64,000 bases of DNA from Candidatus Sulfopaludibacter sp. SbA3 (GTDB lineage Bacteria; Acidobacteriota; Terriglobia; Bryobacterales; Bryobacteraceae). The stretch spans positions 124,001-188,000 of the forward strand of contig CAMDCN010000004.1 in assembly GCA_945890485.1 (NCBI GenBank), in the 5' to 3' direction. The number at the start of each line of letters is the position of its first letter. Position 1 is the first letter of the stretch. This document shows, piece by piece, positions 45,980-52,767 of this stretch. Below the pieces are notes generated by a model. The model saw only the letters and a program-made list of their open reading frames with translations. It was not told the origin of the DNA and did not search any database. A program made the translations under genes and the position numbers.

Positions 45980-48394
45980 GGGCATTTCGCTCTTGGCGCC
46001 GCGGACGCTCTTCCAAATGATTTCGTTGAGCGCGAGCATCGGGGCCTTGTCGTACGCTTCGAGGTTCATCTCCATCGACTCCTTGGCGCCCCATGCCAGC
46101 GGGCTGTTCAATGCGTTCAGGTCGATTCGCGGCTTCTCGTGGGTATAGGGCGTCAGGTCGGCCTTCGTGCCGAGGGCGGCGTACAGTGGCGTGGCCGCCG
46201 CGTCGTACTGGCTCATCGGCGGCAGGCCCAGGAGCAGCTCCATCGTTCGCAAAAACGAGGAGGTGGTGTAGAGGGTGCTGTCGACGGTTTTGCGCTTAGT
46301 GTAGGGGCTGATGAGCAGGCCGACGGTGCGCCGCGCGTCGACGTGGTCCGGACCGTTCTGCGCGTCGTCTTCGATGACAAAGATGGCCGTCTTCGACCAA
46401 TAAGGCGACCGTGTCAGGCGGTCCACCATCATGCCGAGGGCGTAGTCATTCGAGGCCACGGCCGCTTGCGGCGTCGGGGCGCCCGGGCGTGTGCCCTGCG
46501 TATGGTCTTCGCCAAGGCTCATGACGGAGTAGTTCGGCAGTCGCTTTTCGGGATCGGTGGAGGCGAAGTTCCGTTCATACTCGTCGAGTTCTTCCAGGAA
46601 CACTTTCGCGTTCGCGGTATCGCGCATCCCGGGCATCTTGAACTTTGGCGAGACATGGCCGTACAGGTTTCCCACGCCCGGAGCCGCCTCCATTGTCGTC
46701 CCATCGCTCGACCGCGTGGCGTATTCGCCATAGCTGCGGTAGGTCAATCCCTTGGCCTTGGCAACGTCCCACAGGTTGCCCGCGTTAGGCACGTAGGCGT
46801 TCGATCGGCCGGCCTTCGAGTGGCCGCCGTAAGTGATCGGCCATAGCTTCTCATTGAAGTCGGTGGCGTAGGCGGCGTTGGACCAGGAGTGGCCGTCGAC
46901 GCTCACCTCGCCGTCGCAGAACAGGTTGTCGAACAGCACGAACTCTTCGGCCAGCTTGTGATGATTCGGGCTGACTTCCCAACCAAAGATAGTCAACCGC
47001 GAGTCGCCGTTGCCCTGCTTCAGGTCGCCGAGCACCTGATCGTAAGTCCGGTTTTCCTTGATGATGTAAATGATGTGTTCGATGGGCGAGCCCACGCCGA
47101 CCTCGGCCGGAACAATCGAAGGTTCCTTCGGCGCGGCCGCGCGCGTCAACTGCTCATCGCGGTAGGGGATGTTCGCCAACACCTGGGCCGTGTACTTGCC
47201 CAACTCGTTCTTCAGATTCTTCAGGTCGATGCGATGGATGGAGCCCTTCTGCAGGCTGCGCACGCTGTCCTCCGGCATGCCGGCCTTCCGCAAGGGGCTA
47301 GTGGGGCCGGTGACGTTCGGGTAGCCGCCGAGGCCTTTGGCATTACCAACGATGAGCTGATTTGTGGAGGGCAGATAGGTCAATGCCGAAGGGTACCAGC
47401 CCGCCGGGATGAAGCCCAGGATGGCGCTTTCGCCAGCTTCCTTCACATTGATCACCGCTACGGCGTTGTTGTCCGCGTTCGCCACGAACAGCATCTTGTT
47501 GGCGTCGTCGAAGGCCAGCGCATTGGGCGTCGAACCTTCCGGGGCCAGTGCAGTGATGCCGACGTTGATGCGTTCGGTGGGCCGCAGCTTGGCGGTGTCG
47601 ATGACCATCACCGTGTTCGTGTTGGCGCAGGAGACAAACAGACGACCGTCGGAAGCCAGCAGCAGGTCGTTCGGATTCGAATCGACGTCGATGGTGCGAA
47701 TTACTTTCTCGGCGGCGACGTCGATCACCGAAACCGAAGCGCTGGCCCAGTTGGACACGTAGAGCGTTTTGCCGTCAGGAGAGAGGATGACGTCGTAGGG
47801 GTTGATTTGGGTCTGGATGCGCTTCAGCAGTTTCCCGGTAGCGGATTCGAAAACCACCAAGTGGCCCGGCTCATTGCCCGTGCCGCGATTCGCCGCGTAC
47901 AACTTGCCGTTGGTGGGATGATGCACGAGGCCCGCCCACAGGATCTTGGTCAGCGGAATGCTCTCCTCGAAACGCTGCACCGGCTGGCTGCTCACTTTTC
48001 CATTCGCGAAGTTGAAGGCGTAGATCGGGGCGCGCTCCGGATTCTGCCTGCTATCCGCGTTGCCGCCGGAGGCATAGAGCTTTTTGCCGTCCGGGCTGAA
48101 ACCGAGGCCGAACCAAGCCGACTTCATCGGGATCCGCTGCACCGCCTCCCAGGAGGCGACGTTGATGACGTCGAGACCGTGGGGGTTGAAGCCCGCATGC
48201 AGGCCGACAATGGTCTTGCCGTCCGGCGAGGGCAACAATTGCAGAGTCATGTCCTCCGTCGACACCGAAGGACCAACCGGCGTGATGCGCCAGCCATTTG
48301 GCAAATTGTAACCACCCGGCATGGGGCCGGGTTTCTGGGCTAGGAGCAGAGCGGCAGAAGCAACGAGAGACAGGAGGCGGCGCGTCATGGGCAT
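45947..48394 (-). CDS. Secreted beta-propeller protein fused to acid-phosphatase-type phosphoesterase
   Basis: 815 residues with a signal peptide (MPMTRRLLSLVASAALLLAQ). Residues about 30-400 contain YVTN/lactonase-like blades (repeats of SPDGKTLYVSNW, PNDLLLASDGRLFVSCANTNTVMVID, LFVANADNNAVAVINV). From about residue 430 a PF04185-type phosphoesterase follows (IEHIIYIIKENRTYDQVLGD, NHHKLAEEFVLFDNLFCDGEVSVDGH, IFVIEDDAQNGPDHVDARR). The family includes phospholipase C and acid phosphatase. Such propeller-phosphoesterase fusions recur in Acidobacteria. The role is probably release of phosphate outside the cell. Confidence 0.88.
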   Translation of the reverse strand: MPMTRRLLSLVASAALLLAQKPGPMPGGYNLPNGWRITPVGPSVSTEDMTLQLLPSPDGKTIVGLHAGFNPHGLDVINVASWEAVQRIPMKSAWFGLGFSPDGKKLYASGGNADSRQNPERAPIYAFNFANGKVSSQPVQRFEESIPLTKILWAGLVHHPTNGKLYAANRGTGNEPGHLVVFESATGKLLKRIQTQINPYDVILSPDGKTLYVSNWASASVSVIDVAAEKVIRTIDVDSNPNDLLLASDGRLFVSCANTNTVMVIDTAKLRPTERINVGITALAPEGSTPNALAFDDANKMLFVANADNNAVAVINVKEAGESAILGFIPAGWYPSALTYLPSTNQLIVGNAKGLGGYPNVTGPTSPLRKAGMPEDSVRSLQKGSIHRIDLKNLKNELGKYTAQVLANIPYRDEQLTRAAAPKEPSIVPAEVGVGSPIEHIIYIIKENRTYDQVLGDLKQGNGDSRLTIFGWEVSPNHHKLAEEFVLFDNLFCDGEVSVDGHSWSNAAYATDFNEKLWPITYGGHSKAGRSNAYVPNAGNLWDVAKAKGLTYRSYGEYATRSSDGTTMEAAPGVGNLYGHVSPKFKMPGMRDTANAKVFLEELDEYERNFASTDPEKRLPNYSVMSLGEDHTQGTRPGAPTPQAAVASNDYALGMMVDRLTRSPYWSKTAIFVIEDDAQNGPDHVDARRTVGLLISPYTKRKTVDSTLYTTSSFLRTMELLLGLPPMSQYDAAATPLYAALGTKADLTPYTHEKPRIDLNALNSPLAWGAKESMEMNLEAYDKAPMLALNEIIWKSVRGAKSEMPLPIARFHFRK

Positions 48395-48445
48395 TATTAG
48401 ATCACCACAATGTGAAATTGCGATGACGCGGCTCTTGATTTAAAT

Positions 48446-48462
48446 GTGCATTAGAGATGCAT
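48446..48462 (+). promoter_or_regulatory. NsrR-like operator 1
   Basis: GTGCATTAGAGATGCAT, a 17-base imperfect palindrome fitting the NsrR consensus ATGYATT-N3-AATRCAT with a G at one half-site position. It lies 69 bases upstream of the truncated haemoglobin ATG, in a gap otherwise free of genes, and the same operon encodes an NsrR-type regulator. Confidence 0.7.
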
Positions 48463-48468
48463 TTTCTC

Positions 48469-48497
48469 TTGCTCCGGTGATTTTAAATATGTATTCT
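48469..48497 (+). promoter_or_regulatory. Probable promoter of the NO-detoxification operon
   Basis: TTGCTC and TATTCT are 17 bases apart. The -10 overlaps operator 2, as expected for repression. The predicted start is close to 48504, leaving a leader of only about 10 bases before ATG 48515 with no Shine-Dalgarno. Confidence 0.45.
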
Positions 48498-48505
48498 GAA
48501 TGCAC
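48489..48505 (+). promoter_or_regulatory. NsrR-like operator 2
   Basis: ATGTATTCTGAATGCAC, a 17-base imperfect palindrome (ATGTATT / AATGCAC) matching the same NsrR consensus as operator 1, spaced 43 bases centre to centre, about four helical turns. It covers the -10 region. Confidence 0.75.
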
Positions 48506-48514
48506 ATTACGTCT

Positions 48515-48880
48515 ATGCCTACCCTATACGAACAACTTGGCGGAGCCCCCGCCGTAGAAGCCGCGGTGGATCTGTTCTACCGCAAGGTCCTGCTCGACGA
48601 CCGCATCAACGGTTTCTTTGAGGGCGTTGATATGGACCGCCAGATTGCGAAACAGAAGTCCTTCCTGACCATGGTCTTTGGCGGCCCGGTCTCCTACAGC
48701 GGCCAGGATATGCGCCGGGCTCATGCCCACCTCGTCGCGCGTGGCCTGAACGACGGCCATTTCGATGCCGTCGTCGAGAACCTCGGAGCGAGCTTGGCTG
48801 AATTGGGCGTCGCCGCGGAACTGATCAATGAAGTCGCCGCTCTCGCCGAAACCACCCGCGCCGATGTCCTCGGCAAATAG
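48515..48880 (+). CDS. glbN: Truncated haemoglobin, group I (N)
   Basis: 121 residues from ATG 48515 (MPTLYEQLGG); an upstream ATG at 48500 falls inside operator 2 and is less likely. The two-over-two globin pattern includes Tyr22 at B10 (LFYRKVL), GGP at 56-58, and the proximal His70 (MRRAHAHL, M plus 4, as in M. tuberculosis trHbN), then HFDAVVENL. Group I truncated globins can dioxygenate NO to nitrate when re-reduced. The coupled downstream reductase and the NsrR operators support that role. Its stop overlaps the reductase start by 17 bases. Confidence 0.88.
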   Translation: MPTLYEQLGGAPAVEAAVDLFYRKVLLDDRINGFFEGVDMDRQIAKQKSFLTMVFGGPVSYSGQDMRRAHAHLVARGLNDGHFDAVVENLGASLAELGVAAELINEVAALAETTRADVLGK

Positions 48881-49811
48881 TCCCGTCCTGCACTGGGAGG
48901 ACACGCCAGTGCCATGCCTCGAGGGCGATACCGCCCTCGAGGCTCTCCTTCGCGCTGGAATCGCCATTCCGCATTCCTGCCGCGCCGGGGCCTGCCAATC
49001 GTGTCTGGTACAGGCCAAATCGGGTGCTGTCCCCGCGGCGGCACAGCAGGGCCTGAAAGATTCGCTGCGTGCGCAGAACTATCTGCTGGCCTGCCTCTGC
49101 CGGCCGGAGCAGGATCTGACGCTGGCGCCGCCCGGCCAGGGAGTTCGCATTCCCGCCTTTCTCACCGAGGCCGATTGGCTCAGCGATTCGGTACTCCGCG
49201 TCCGGCTCGCCGCCTCGGAACCGCTCGGTCACCGGCCTGGCCAGTACCTGACGTTGTTCCGACCCGATGGGCTCGGCCGCAGCTACTCGATCGCCGGAGA
49301 CGACCTGGAACTGCACGTGCGCCGCATCCCCGGTGGCGCCATGAGCAACTGGCTGGCCGAGGCCCAACCGGGCGACGCCGTCACCATTCAAGGTCCCGCC
49401 GGCGACTGCTTCTACACGCCGGGCGATCCCACTCAACCGATGCTTCTGGCGGGAGCCGGCACCGGGCTGGCACCTCTGTTTGGCATCCTTCGCGATGCAC
49501 TTCGCCAGGGCCACCAGGGACCGATCTGGCTGTATCATGGCGCGCTCAACGAACGTGGCCTGTACCTAACCACGGAGCTCCAAGCGATGGCCGCCGAGTA
49601 TCCGAATTTCGCCTACCGCCCGGCGCTGCTCGACCGCGATGGGCCGCTGCCGGAGCTGATCTCGCGCGACCATCCGAAGCTGAATGGCTGGCGCGGCTTC
49701 GTCTGCGGCGACCCGACAATCGTGAACATGCTCCGTAAGCGCCTGTTTCTCGGCGGCATGGCCAGCCGGGCCATCAGCGCCGACGCCTTCCTCCCCGCTA
49801 CTCTCAAGTAG
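48864..49811 (+). CDS. 2Fe-2S ferredoxin/FAD/NAD(P)H reductase
   Basis: 315 residues from ATG 48864. An N-terminal plant-type ferredoxin domain carries Cys39, Cys44, Cys47 (CRAGACQSC) and Cys77 (LLACLC). The flavin domain follows with FAD motif RSYS at 139-142, and the nucleotide domain with AGAGTGLAP at 196-204 and a final CGDPTIV. This is the modular reductase of oxygenases (BenC/MmoC type). Here it most simply reduces the truncated haemoglobin, giving the equivalent of a split flavohaemoglobin. It ends 2 bases before nsrR. Confidence 0.88.
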   Translation: MSSANSPVLHWEDTPVPCLEGDTALEALLRAGIAIPHSCRAGACQSCLVQAKSGAVPAAAQQGLKDSLRAQNYLLACLCRPEQDLTLAPPGQGVRIPAFLTEADWLSDSVLRVRLAASEPLGHRPGQYLTLFRPDGLGRSYSIAGDDLELHVRRIPGGAMSNWLAEAQPGDAVTIQGPAGDCFYTPGDPTQPMLLAGAGTGLAPLFGILRDALRQGHQGPIWLYHGALNERGLYLTTELQAMAAEYPNFAYRPALLDRDGPLPELISRDHPKLNGWRGFVCGDPTIVNMLRKRLFLGGMASRAISADAFLPATLK

Positions 49812-49813
49812 AG

Positions 49814-50254
49814 ATGCATCTGACGCTTCATACCGACTACGCCCTCCGGGTTCTGCTCTACCTGACGCACTTCCCGGAGCGGCCCGTCGGCACGGCGGAG
49901 ATCAGCACGGCGTTTGGCATCTCAAAGCACCATTTGGTGCGTGTTGTGCAAACTCTCGCTCTGCATCAATTTGTGACGGCTACAGCGGGGCGCTCCGGCG
50001 GAGTTGCTTTGGCGAAACCCGCGGCGGAGATCCGCTTGGGCGACGTGGTGCGCGCGTGCGAACCGAACTTCAAGATGGTTGAGTGCTTCGAGAAAGAGTC
50101 GAACACGTGCCCGATCGTGCCGGTCTGTGCCCTGAAGTCGCCGCTGCGGGATGCGCTGAACGCGTTCCTGACGACTCTTGACGCGCACACCCTCGCCGAC
50201 GTGGCGAATCCACGGCAACACAACCGCTTCATCAGCCTCCTCCAGTCTCAGTAG
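49814..50254 (+). CDS. nsrR: NsrR-type Rrf2-family nitric oxide-sensing regulator
   Basis: 146 residues. An Rrf2 winged helix (MHLTLHTDYALRVLLYL, GISKHHLVRVVQTL, GRSGGVALAKPA) precedes three Cys at 91, 99 and 105 in VECFEKESNTCPIVPVC, the iron-sulfur ligands of NsrR that react with NO. The operon promoter region holds two palindromes of the NsrR type, so the protein probably represses its own operon until NO damages the cluster. Confidence 0.9.
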   Translation: MHLTLHTDYALRVLLYLTHFPERPVGTAEISTAFGISKHHLVRVVQTLALHQFVTATAGRSGGVALAKPAAEIRLGDVVRACEPNFKMVECFEKESNTCPIVPVCALKSPLRDALNAFLTTLDAHTLADVANPRQHNRFISLLQSQ

Positions 50255-50267
50255 AATAGGGCTCGAT

Positions 50268-51266
50268 ATGAGCGCCTCCCCTGTTCACTGCTCGGTACCG
50301 TTGAACGCCCCGAGCGGCAAGTTCCCTGGCCATTTGGCCATTCCTTACTCGTACAATCTCGGCGGCTGGGCCAACCTGCTCGTGCCCATCTGTGTCATCG
50401 CCAACGGCCCCGGCCCGACGGTGCTGCTGATGGCCGGGAACCATGGCGACGAGTACCCTGGCCAAGTGGCTATCCAACACCTATGGCGCCAGCTTGAGCC
50501 TTCGCAGATAACCGGCAGGCTGATCCTGATCCCGACGCTCAGCCCACCCGCCGCCCATGCGGGCACCCGCCTGTGGCCGCTAGATGGGCGCAACTTCAAC
50601 CGATGCTTTCCCGGCAACCCCGCCGGCACGCCCAGCGAAGTGCTCGCGCACTTTTTGTCCAGTATTCTGTTCCCGCTGGCGGACGTCGTCATCGATCTCC
50701 ATACCGGCGGCCGTAGCCTGAACTTCGTCCCGTGCGCGCATATGCACCTGGTTGATAACCCCGCGATGTTCGCCGCGACGGAAGCCTTCCTCACGGACTT
50801 CTGCTTTCTCTACACCGATGTCGCAGGCGCCGGACTTCTGCCTTCGGAGGCGGAACGCCAAGGAAAGCTGGTCATTACTACGGAGCTCGGCGGAGGCGAG
50901 ACCGTCACGGCCTCGCTGCACCGGCTGACGCAAACCGGACTGACCAACGTCCTCCGCCACATCGGCGTGCTGGCCGGCCCCCCGGTTCCACGGACTCGGC
51001 CCGCTCGTTGGGTGCAGTCGCTCGATCGGGAAGACTACCGCTTCGCGCCCATCTCCGGCCTGTTTGAAGCCGCCGTCGATCTCGGCGACGCCGTCGCTCC
51101 AGGCGATATCCTGGGCCGCATCCATGACCTCGAAGACCCCAGCCGCGAACCCGCCCTCATTCTCTCCCCCAGTGCCGGACTGCTGATCGCCAACCGCTCC
51201 CCTTCCCGCGTCGCCCAGGGCGATTGCGTGGCCGTCATTGCCCACGAGACCAACCCCCATGCCTAA
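50268..51266 (+). CDS. Succinylglutamate desuccinylase/aspartoacylase-family deacylase
   Basis: 332 residues from ATG 50268 (MSASPVHCSVPLN), 13 bases after nsrR. The AstE/AspA zinc motif is GNHGDEYPGQ (His and Glu), with RNFNRCFPG, and the second zinc His is in VVIDLHTGG. The C-terminal beta part (FEAAVDLGDAVAPGDILGRIHD) is also typical. Relatives include DoeB, which deacetylates N-alpha-acetyl-diaminobutyrate in ectoine breakdown, but no other doe genes are here. The ATG of the M81 gene lies 8 bases upstream of its stop. Confidence 0.82.
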   Translation: MSASPVHCSVPLNAPSGKFPGHLAIPYSYNLGGWANLLVPICVIANGPGPTVLLMAGNHGDEYPGQVAIQHLWRQLEPSQITGRLILIPTLSPPAAHAGTRLWPLDGRNFNRCFPGNPAGTPSEVLAHFLSSILFPLADVVIDLHTGGRSLNFVPCAHMHLVDNPAMFAATEAFLTDFCFLYTDVAGAGLLPSEAERQGKLVITTELGGGETVTASLHRLTQTGLTNVLRHIGVLAGPPVPRTRPARWVQSLDREDYRFAPISGLFEAAVDLGDAVAPGDILGRIHDLEDPSREPALILSPSAGLLIANRSPSRVAQGDCVAVIAHETNPHA

Positions 51267-52767
51267 AATCCTCATCAACGAACTCAAGCAGGAGATCTCT
51301 TCCTTTAATCCTCATCTGGGCCAATACCGGGACTTCCTCATCGCTCGCGGCGAGGGCGTGCTGGCGGCCCACCGCAATCTGCGTTCAGAAGTTGCCGGGG
51401 CGTTGAGCGTTTTCGCGTCGCACCCGGAACTCGAACTGATCGGCGGCTATAGCGCCCGCGCCATCACCTCCGGCGGCACGTTGGCCGACGAAGCATTCGC
51501 GCAACTCGCCGACGAGTTCCTCGCCGCCGTCCGGGCGAACGCCGATGTCGACGCCATTTATTTCTGTCTGCATGGGGCCTGCGCCGCGCAGACCATCCAT
51601 GACTGCGAAGGCTACCTGCTCGCGGAGACCCGGAAAATTGTCGGCGATCGAATCCCCATCGTTACGTCACTGGACTTGCACGGCATCCTGACGGACACGA
51701 TCCTCGAACACTCCTCCGCCGTGGTCCTCTATCACACGTATCCCCACGTCGATTTCTACGAAACCGGCGAACGTTCGGCCCGCTTGCTACTTCGCATTTT
51801 GAAGCGCGAAGTCGCGCCCATATCGATTCGTGTCCCCATCCCGGCGCTGGTTCGCGGCAACGAACTGAAGACGGCTACCGGCCGCTGGGGCGAGTGCGTC
51901 CGCGCCGCCATCGCGTTTGAGAACAGTCCGGCCGGGCTTTCGGGCGGCATGTTCATCGGGAACCCGTTCACGGACGTGCCGGATCTGCTTTCTAACGTCC
52001 TGCTCGTCGCCGACGGCGAAGCCAACGTATCCGCGGCGGAAGCGGAGGCCATTCGCATCGCCGAAACCTTCTGGGCGATGCGCCAACATCTTCACCAGCC
52101 AGTGACGCCGCTGGCGGAAAGCATCTCCCGCTTTGCCGCCGCTACGGGCCGTGTGGTTCTGGTCGATGCCGCCGACGCCACCAGTTCCGGAGCCTCCGGC
52201 GATTCAAACGCCATTCTCCGTGAGCTACTCGCTCAGGGTGTTCAGCGCACGGTGCTGCTGCCGATTGTCGACGCGCCCGCCGTGGCGGAGGCCATGGCGG
52301 TGGGCATTGGGGTTACGATTACGGTGCCCTTGGGCGGCACGCTGGACGCCGGACGCTTCGCTCCGCTTGCGTTCACGGGTACGGTTCGCCATCTTTTCGA
52401 TGGCCGCTTCCGCGCCGAGTCCAATGGGGAGATCTGGGACGGCGGTCTAACCGCGGTCCTCGAATCCGGCAACATCACAGTGGTCGTGACGAGTCAGGCG
52501 GTGAATCTATTTGACCGTTCGCTCTTCTTCGCGCACGGTCTCGATCCAGCCCATTTTGACGGCACCGTGGTCAAGAGCCCACACTGCCAGCCGCACATGT
52601 TCGACGACGGCGCCGAACTGATTCTCAATATCGACGCGCCCGGCTCGACTAGCGCCAACCTGCCCTATCTGGGCCACACGCGATGTGCCCGGCCCATCTT
52701 TCCGCTCGAACCGGAGACGGCCTTCACACCGAAGCCACGCCGCTTCTACGGAGCGATCGCAAAGTAA
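51259..52767 (+). CDS. M81-family (MlrC) metallopeptidase-like protein
   Basis: 502 residues. DUF1485/MlrC family, first known from microcystin-degrading Sphingomonas. Motifs: ILINELKQEISSFNPH at the N-terminus, FCLHGACAAQ, TSLDLHGILTD (zinc His), LYHTYPHVDFYETG, VLVDAADATSSGASGDS and GTVVKSPHCQPHMFDD near the end. Members probably hydrolyse amide bonds in unusual cyclic or modified peptides. The coupling to an AstE/AspA-type deacylase suggests two-step degradation of an acylated amino compound. It overlaps the convergent gene at 52746 by 22 bases. Confidence 0.85.
   Translation: MPKILINELKQEISSFNPHLGQYRDFLIARGEGVLAAHRNLRSEVAGALSVFASHPELELIGGYSARAITSGGTLADEAFAQLADEFLAAVRANADVDAIYFCLHGACAAQTIHDCEGYLLAETRKIVGDRIPIVTSLDLHGILTDTILEHSSAVVLYHTYPHVDFYETGERSARLLLRILKREVAPISIRVPIPALVRGNELKTATGRWGECVRAAIAFENSPAGLSGGMFIGNPFTDVPDLLSNVLLVADGEANVSAAEAEAIRIAETFWAMRQHLHQPVTPLAESISRFAAATGRVVLVDAADATSSGASGDSNAILRELLAQGVQRTVLLPIVDAPAVAEAMAVGIGVTITVPLGGTLDAGRFAPLAFTGTVRHLFDGRFRAESNGEIWDGGLTAVLESGNITVVVTSQAVNLFDRSLFFAHGLDPAHFDGTVVKSPHCQPHMFDDGAELILNIDAPGSTSANLPYLGHTRCARPIFPLEPETAFTPKPRRFYGAIAK

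Follow-up and report, generated by a model that had tools for sequence, protein, structure and literature searches.

The stretch of DNA analysed here (the window, 64,000 nucleotides of contig CAMDCN010000004.1 from Candidatus Sulfopaludibacter sp. SbA3) carries at 48446-50254 a small globin gene, a reductase gene and a regulator gene behind two palindromes, which raises the question of what these proteins do together and which signal governs them. The original prediction read the locus as a self-regulated split flavohaemoglobin, and all elements that it named (two palindromes, globin, reductase and regulator) were found in their places. Judging from sequence, we regard it as very likely that the operon encodes a self-regulated two-component NO dioxygenase.

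Gene layout and encoded proteins

The source genome comprises 7.1 Mb in 35 contigs and is 97.4% complete. In the window, the locus is laid out as follows:

48446-48462, no strand: NsrR-type operator, distal, GTGCATTAGAGATGCAT; pattern match, upstream of the putative -35
48489-48505, no strand: NsrR-type operator, proximal, ATGTATTCTGAATGCAC; pattern match, over the putative -10
48469-48497, + strand: putative promoter, TTGCTC / 17 bp spacer / TATTCT; read by eye
48515-48880, + strand: group I truncated globin, PF01152, 121 aa; Tyr22, Gln43, Gln47, His70
48864-49811, + strand: NAD(P)H reductase with 2Fe-2S, FAD and NAD domains, 315 aa; Cys39/44/47/77
49814-50254, + strand: predicted NsrR-type Rrf2 repressor, 146 aa; Asp8, Cys91, Cys99, Cys105

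The reductase gene starts before the globin stop codon, resulting in an overlap of 17 bp, and the regulator gene begins 2 bp past the reductase gene. For the globin, the ATG at 48515 is better supported than the alternative at 48500, because it is the start in the orthologues L011 and L022 and because 48500 falls within the proximal operator. The regulator had been said to end the operon; it is indeed the third gene, but the operon end is not certain, as an AstE/AspA-like gene follows at 50268, 13 bp past the regulator gene, and the window scan reported no terminator-like site between them. Among the 97 loci compared, several of which end shortly past the module, this gene occurs only in our own (L009) and in L010, L043, L044 and L045. 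The downstream astE-like and mlrC-like genes were rejected as module members, being confined to close relatives apart from one 31% mlrC-like match in L049. A role in phage defence was likewise rejected, with PADLOC returning 0 families for the three proteins.

The assignment of the globin to the group I truncated globins was borne out: it matches PF01152 with 66.1 bits (cut-off 21), its best PDB matches are labelled group 1 truncated hemoglobin or cyanoglobin, and the pocket residues are present. We take Tyr22, Gln43, Gln47 and His70 to be B10, E7, E11 and F8, respectively. All four are invariant across 11 aligned globins (alignment A3). Furthermore, a profile search of genome contigs with the reductase alignment yielded at least 500 confirmed loci, and in the best 80 of these, which were kept, B10 Tyr is retained in 78 globins and E7 Gln, E11 Gln and F8 His in 79 each, all exceptions being gaps. 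The fold family is shared with 3aq5, presumably the Tetrahymena globin, with cyanoglobin (1s69) and with HbN (1idr). The pocket residues match those of 3aq5, with whose two glutamines the two of the window globin align; three residues that 3aq5 lacks are inserted beyond the F8 His region of the window globin. By its title, a paper cited for the Tetrahymena globin ties its B10-E7-E11 network to NO detoxification. Other globins encoded elsewhere in the genome, one more of PF01152 and two of PF00042 whose open frames measure 152 and 161 aa, could share the work. Both PF00042 globins are single-domain proteins (L041 1423-1827, L042 1456-1887), each beside a large open reading frame (ORF) that reads like tetratricopeptide repeats.

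The reductase consists of Fer2, FAD_binding_6 and NAD_binding_1 domains, and of its cluster cysteines C39 and C44 are kept in 79 and C47 and C77 in all of the reductases from the same best 80 loci. Its best solved relative is 5ogx (residues 16-312, 3.4e-44), which is listed as a cytochrome P450 reductase and which we take to be GcoB; toluene monooxygenase and benzoate dioxygenase reductases, 4wqm and 1krh among them, come next. Scores against NCBIfam models all stay below cut-off, with 187 of 338 bits for PRK05713, 120.6 of 430 for BenC and 52.5 of 432 for Hmp (NF009805). The protein had been described as the FAD and NAD domains of flavohaemoglobin plus a 2Fe-2S domain: the three domains are there, but they stand nearer to P450 and BenC reductases than to Hmp.

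Operators and conservation of the module

As predicted, two 17-base palindromes lie 43 bp apart (starts at 48446 and 48489), one of them over a -10 that is itself placed by eye. Both contain the core TGYAT-N5-ATRCA (48447-48461 and 48490-48504), which has the NsrR form. Symmetry over the whole palindromes is imperfect, with 10 and 12 of 16 possible positions matching the reverse complement, and the TGYAT/ATRCA half-sites are intact. The exact core, a pattern written after these two sites had been seen, occurs twice in the 64-kb window, both times here, versus 0.02 expected, and 0 of 100 shuffles reached two. Genome-wide it was found at four places, two of them in this operon, versus two for the backward control. 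Of the two other places, which equal the control level, one is 8 bp ahead of an ORF resembling, on reading, a sugar kinase (L005), and the other is inside an ORF (L008). In Legionella, Rodionov 2005 (PMC1274295) gives glbN with its ferredoxin reductase as the sole NsrR target.

Reading by eye places a -35 (TTGCTC, 48469-48474) and a -10 (TATTCT, 48492-48497) 17 bp apart, with the proximal palindrome covering the latter; a consensus promoter scan of 48200-51400 reported no promoter. If the eye-read promoter is right, transcription would start about 10 nt before the start codon, leaving a leader of about 10-12 nt, and therefore the operon may be nearly leaderless.

The search for the same gene order elsewhere, which the original prediction had proposed, was run on the best 80 loci. 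The globin gene lies upstream of the reductase gene on the same strand in every one of them and is fused to it in none, and a regulator accompanies the pair in 72, downstream on the same strand in 59 and on the opposite strand upstream of the globin in 13. From the remaining eight it is absent in the examined stretch, one of which (L068) is cut at a contig end. Fifteen of the 80 are probably the same contigs as those from which profiles A1 to A3 were built, and are probably common to the class-level set of 17 loci. When these 15 are left out, the globin is present in 65/65 and the regulator in 60/65; in the class-level set the counts are 17/17 and 14/17.

By record titles and manual sorting, the best 80 loci divide into 40 from Acidobacteriota, 20 from Myxococcota, 15 from Proteobacteria (5 of them Zetaproteobacteria), 4 from Hydrogenedentota and 1 from Sumerlaeia, with one of the Acidobacteriota labelled Bordetella and one of the Myxococcota labelled Comamonas. 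The label 'Bordetella parapertussis' on a metagenome-assembled genome (MAG; L062 / L066 form the pair of odd titles) looks wrong, and this locus was sorted with the Acidobacteriota. The 'Comamonas' title looks wrong as well, the locus having an operator and spacing like those of myxobacterial loci. The trio also occurs in one strain of Myxococcus xanthus (L060). As judged from gene content and order, globin, reductase and regulator are a conserved module crossing several bacterial phyla.

A few arrangements deviate from the common one. Three loci of Zetaproteobacteria (L103 3333-3887, L106 2675-3226, L115 3423-3926) have one more group I globin, encoded between the soluble globin and the reductase; its N terminus is hydrophobic and, judged by reading, possibly a membrane anchor. 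On two Methylocystis plasmids (L130 3624-4951; L131 3637-4954) the globin-reductase pair has a sigma factor gene in its vicinity, and the PLSDB gene table, itself incomplete, gives no Rrf2 gene in the stretch examined; a third plasmid shows the pair among the plasmid matches listed.

Within the class, 235 of 299 sampled genomes have some reductase match. Only 16 of the 299, including our own, hold a near full-length orthologue (E 6.7e-93 or better), and therefore the operon is patchy. A broken copy follows at 9.1e-44 (L025), the next genome in the sample drops to 1.1e-23, and a short reductase fragment of 58% identity in G273 may be another orthologue. The broken copy, from the same genus (L025 1113-2349, G249), has disrupted globin and reductase frames and a full-length regulator. 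In the closest relative found (L010 1185-2427), the globin lacks 33 bp and the reductase 21 bp, both in frame, and the gap in the reductase removes two 2Fe-2S cysteines; these gaps are either a real loss or an assembly artefact.

How widely is the operator itself conserved? The count leaves out L076 and L085, whose upstream sequence was too short. Upstream of the globin, 52 of the remaining 78 promoters contain the exact operator and 64 contain it within one mismatch, versus 0 and 3 for the backward pattern and 0.00 and 0.85 expected from base shuffles. The 14 promoters scored as misses include two (L045, L081) in which the globin start was placed late, as the matching contigs L010 and L018 show exact sites. 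Omission of the 15 profile-building loci leaves 43/63 exact and 53/63 within one mismatch. Chance palindromes were rejected as an explanation on the window shuffles together with these backward and shuffle controls; an NsrR-type palindromic operator is present at the putative NO-detoxification promoter. In the class-level set, 13/17 loci have an exact site and 15/17 one within one mismatch; it begins 18-27 nt before the start codon in 9/17, while in the others it is further up or missing, partly through late start assignment. In myxobacterial loci the operator lies mostly 35-70 nt before the estimated globin start, and in several orthologues it follows a -35 resembling TTGAC, as read by eye. 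Such placement fits a repressor that acts by blocking polymerase, and it also fits a very short leader.

The original claim of two NsrR operators stands for the window, where both cores are present, but the distal one is not conserved in L010, where the proximal one keeps its position; only the proximal operator is therefore general. A second site 43-45 bp away was found in three other loci. Across 65 loci including the window, secondary sites with at most two mismatches number 26, versus 12.2 (sd 3.4) in shuffled flanks, and four of them (three without the window) lie at 42-46 bp, versus a shuffled mean of 0.57 and maximum of 3. Since this spacing was chosen after the window had been seen, the signal for paired operators in promoters beyond it is suggestive only.

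Regulator identity and proposed function

The regulator is an Rrf2 protein with Cys82, Cys91, Cys99, Cys105 and Asp8. It had been called an NsrR on account of Cys91, Cys99 and Cys105, and these three are in place together with Asp8; with 117.3 of 182 bits it misses the cut-off of the NCBIfam NsrR model (NF008240), and we therefore call it NsrR-type and not an equivalog. According to two studies (PMC5411485; PMC10510648), the cluster of S. coelicolor NsrR is held by three cysteines and Asp8, and, according to a third (PMC9338935), Arg60 of this protein makes the most minor-groove contacts. All 72 regulators retain D8, R12, C91, C99 and C105, and residue 60 is Arg in 58 and Lys in 14.

A competing reading would make the regulator a RirA-type sensor of iron or iron-sulphur status, with the operon answering iron or oxygen instead of NO. 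Indeed, it scores higher against the RirA model (131.7 of 193 bits, also below cut-off) than against that of NsrR, all 14 members of the regulator alignment (A2) match both models, and, according to PMC10510648, RirA likewise has three cysteines and finds its closest Rrf2 relative in NsrR. However, the same paper gives RirA a highly conserved Asn at residue 8, where all 72 regulators have Asp, and the operator precedes a globin, not iron-uptake genes. The residue-8 difference favours NsrR, and on it RirA identity was rejected; that the operon responds to iron or oxygen strikes us as improbable.

For the NO dioxygenase that we favour, we envisage a self-limiting cycle. NsrR with an intact iron-sulphur cluster would sit on the palindrome over the -10 and block the promoter; NO would react with the cluster and release NsrR, so that globin, reductase and more NsrR are made. 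Electrons would pass from NAD(P)H via FAD and the 2Fe-2S cluster of the reductase to the globin haem, the ferrous-oxy globin would convert NO to nitrate, and the resulting ferric haem would be re-reduced. Once NO is gone, rebuilt NsrR would close the operon. Gene identity, conserved residues, conserved linkage and the conserved operator were computed here, whereas the type of cluster, the sensing of NO, the binding of DNA, the transfer of electrons and the catalysis are inferences. The regulation and the globin-reductase pairing are supported by the loci compared, and the chemistry and NO sensing are those that the protein families would suggest. Of the NO source genes looked for in the own genome, NO synthase, Hcp and RIC had no match at E 0.001, and NirK stayed below cut-off.

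Could the globin and reductase carry out other chemistry, for instance low-oxygen NO reduction or denitrosylation, nitrite reduction or peroxide handling? Versatility is a trait of group I globins, and control by an NO-type sensor would fit any NO-removing reaction. The B10 Tyr and E7/E11 Gln are near invariant, however, and these residues are associated with oxygen-stabilising pockets that support NO dioxygenation, so that we hold such chemistry to be unlikely, if less so than a response to iron. It is still harder to believe that the reductase mainly serves another oxygenase and has the globin as a mere neighbour. Its best solved relatives (5ogx, 4wqm, 1krh) are reductases of P450 or aromatic oxygenases, and some plasmid matches listed at about 34% identity are naphthalene dioxygenase reductases; but the coupling of reductase to globin that was originally proposed is, as a gene pair, fixed in 80/80 best loci, and the globin also lies in both plasmid regions examined, two of the three plasmid matches listed with the highest identity (42-44%).

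Comparison with known systems

That the system is not built from Hmp agrees with our data: globin and reductase are separate genes, the reductase scores below the Hmp cut-off, and none of six matches to the Hmp model in the own genome exceeds it. Membership in, or fusion as, Hmp was rejected for the same low score and for the 0/80 fused loci. In Hmp, a 3/3 globin and the reductase form a single polypeptide, which has no 2Fe-2S domain. Hmp under NsrR and the window system have globin, FAD and NAD modules and, presumably, control by an NO-sensing NsrR and the chemistry in common; the window system differs in its separate proteins, its group I truncated globin and its additional 2Fe-2S domain. 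With 5ogx and BenC (1krh), the window reductase shares the 2Fe-2S, FAD, NAD order, but it is linked to a globin gene, whereas those are linked to a P450 or Rieske oxygenase. The window regulator is akin to 5n07, presumably from Streptomyces coelicolor, which as NsrR belongs to the Rrf2 family and whose Asp8 and three cysteines align with its own. S. coelicolor NsrR operators are those of hmpA1, hmpA2 and nsrR according to PMC9338935, whereas in the window they precede a truncated globin.

With somewhat more confidence than doubt, we propose from these sequences that one reductase family is dedicated to group I truncated globins and, together with NsrR, may form a class of two-component NO dioxygenase in its own right, spread across phyla and taking the place of Hmp in many bacteria. 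In this class some promoters would bear paired operators, spaced by about four helical turns and allowing tighter switching, and some Zetaproteobacteria would add a second, apparently membrane-anchored globin. Because the partner reductase is conserved and lies behind the same putative NO-sensing switch, the idea can be tested directly, including in Myxococcus xanthus, and aerobic NO removal may be under-counted where annotation seeks Hmp only.

Among the titles listed by a literature search, with subscription journals mostly outside its scope, no experimental work on the globin-reductase pair appeared. For Legionella pneumophila, PMC1274295 describes a glbN-lpg2536 operon of a cyanoglobin-type truncated globin and a ferredoxin reductase with an NsrR site upstream, and proposed in 2005 that the pair oxidises NO similarly to Hmp, which Gardner restated in 2012 (PMC3820574). 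The kind is therefore already known, as a proposal. A 2024 paper notes nsrR and glbN in two MAGs, of Hydrogenedentota and Sumerlaeota. Our operon is thus a well-supported new case of a kind that is known but little studied. To this the present analysis adds an acidobacterial example in which nsrR comes third, evidence of wide linkage and of operator conservation, and the test on Asp8. Likened by description only, the Legionella operon and ours share a truncated globin and reductase behind an upstream NsrR-type site, but the former is described as two genes, whereas the window adds nsrR as a third gene, and two operators.
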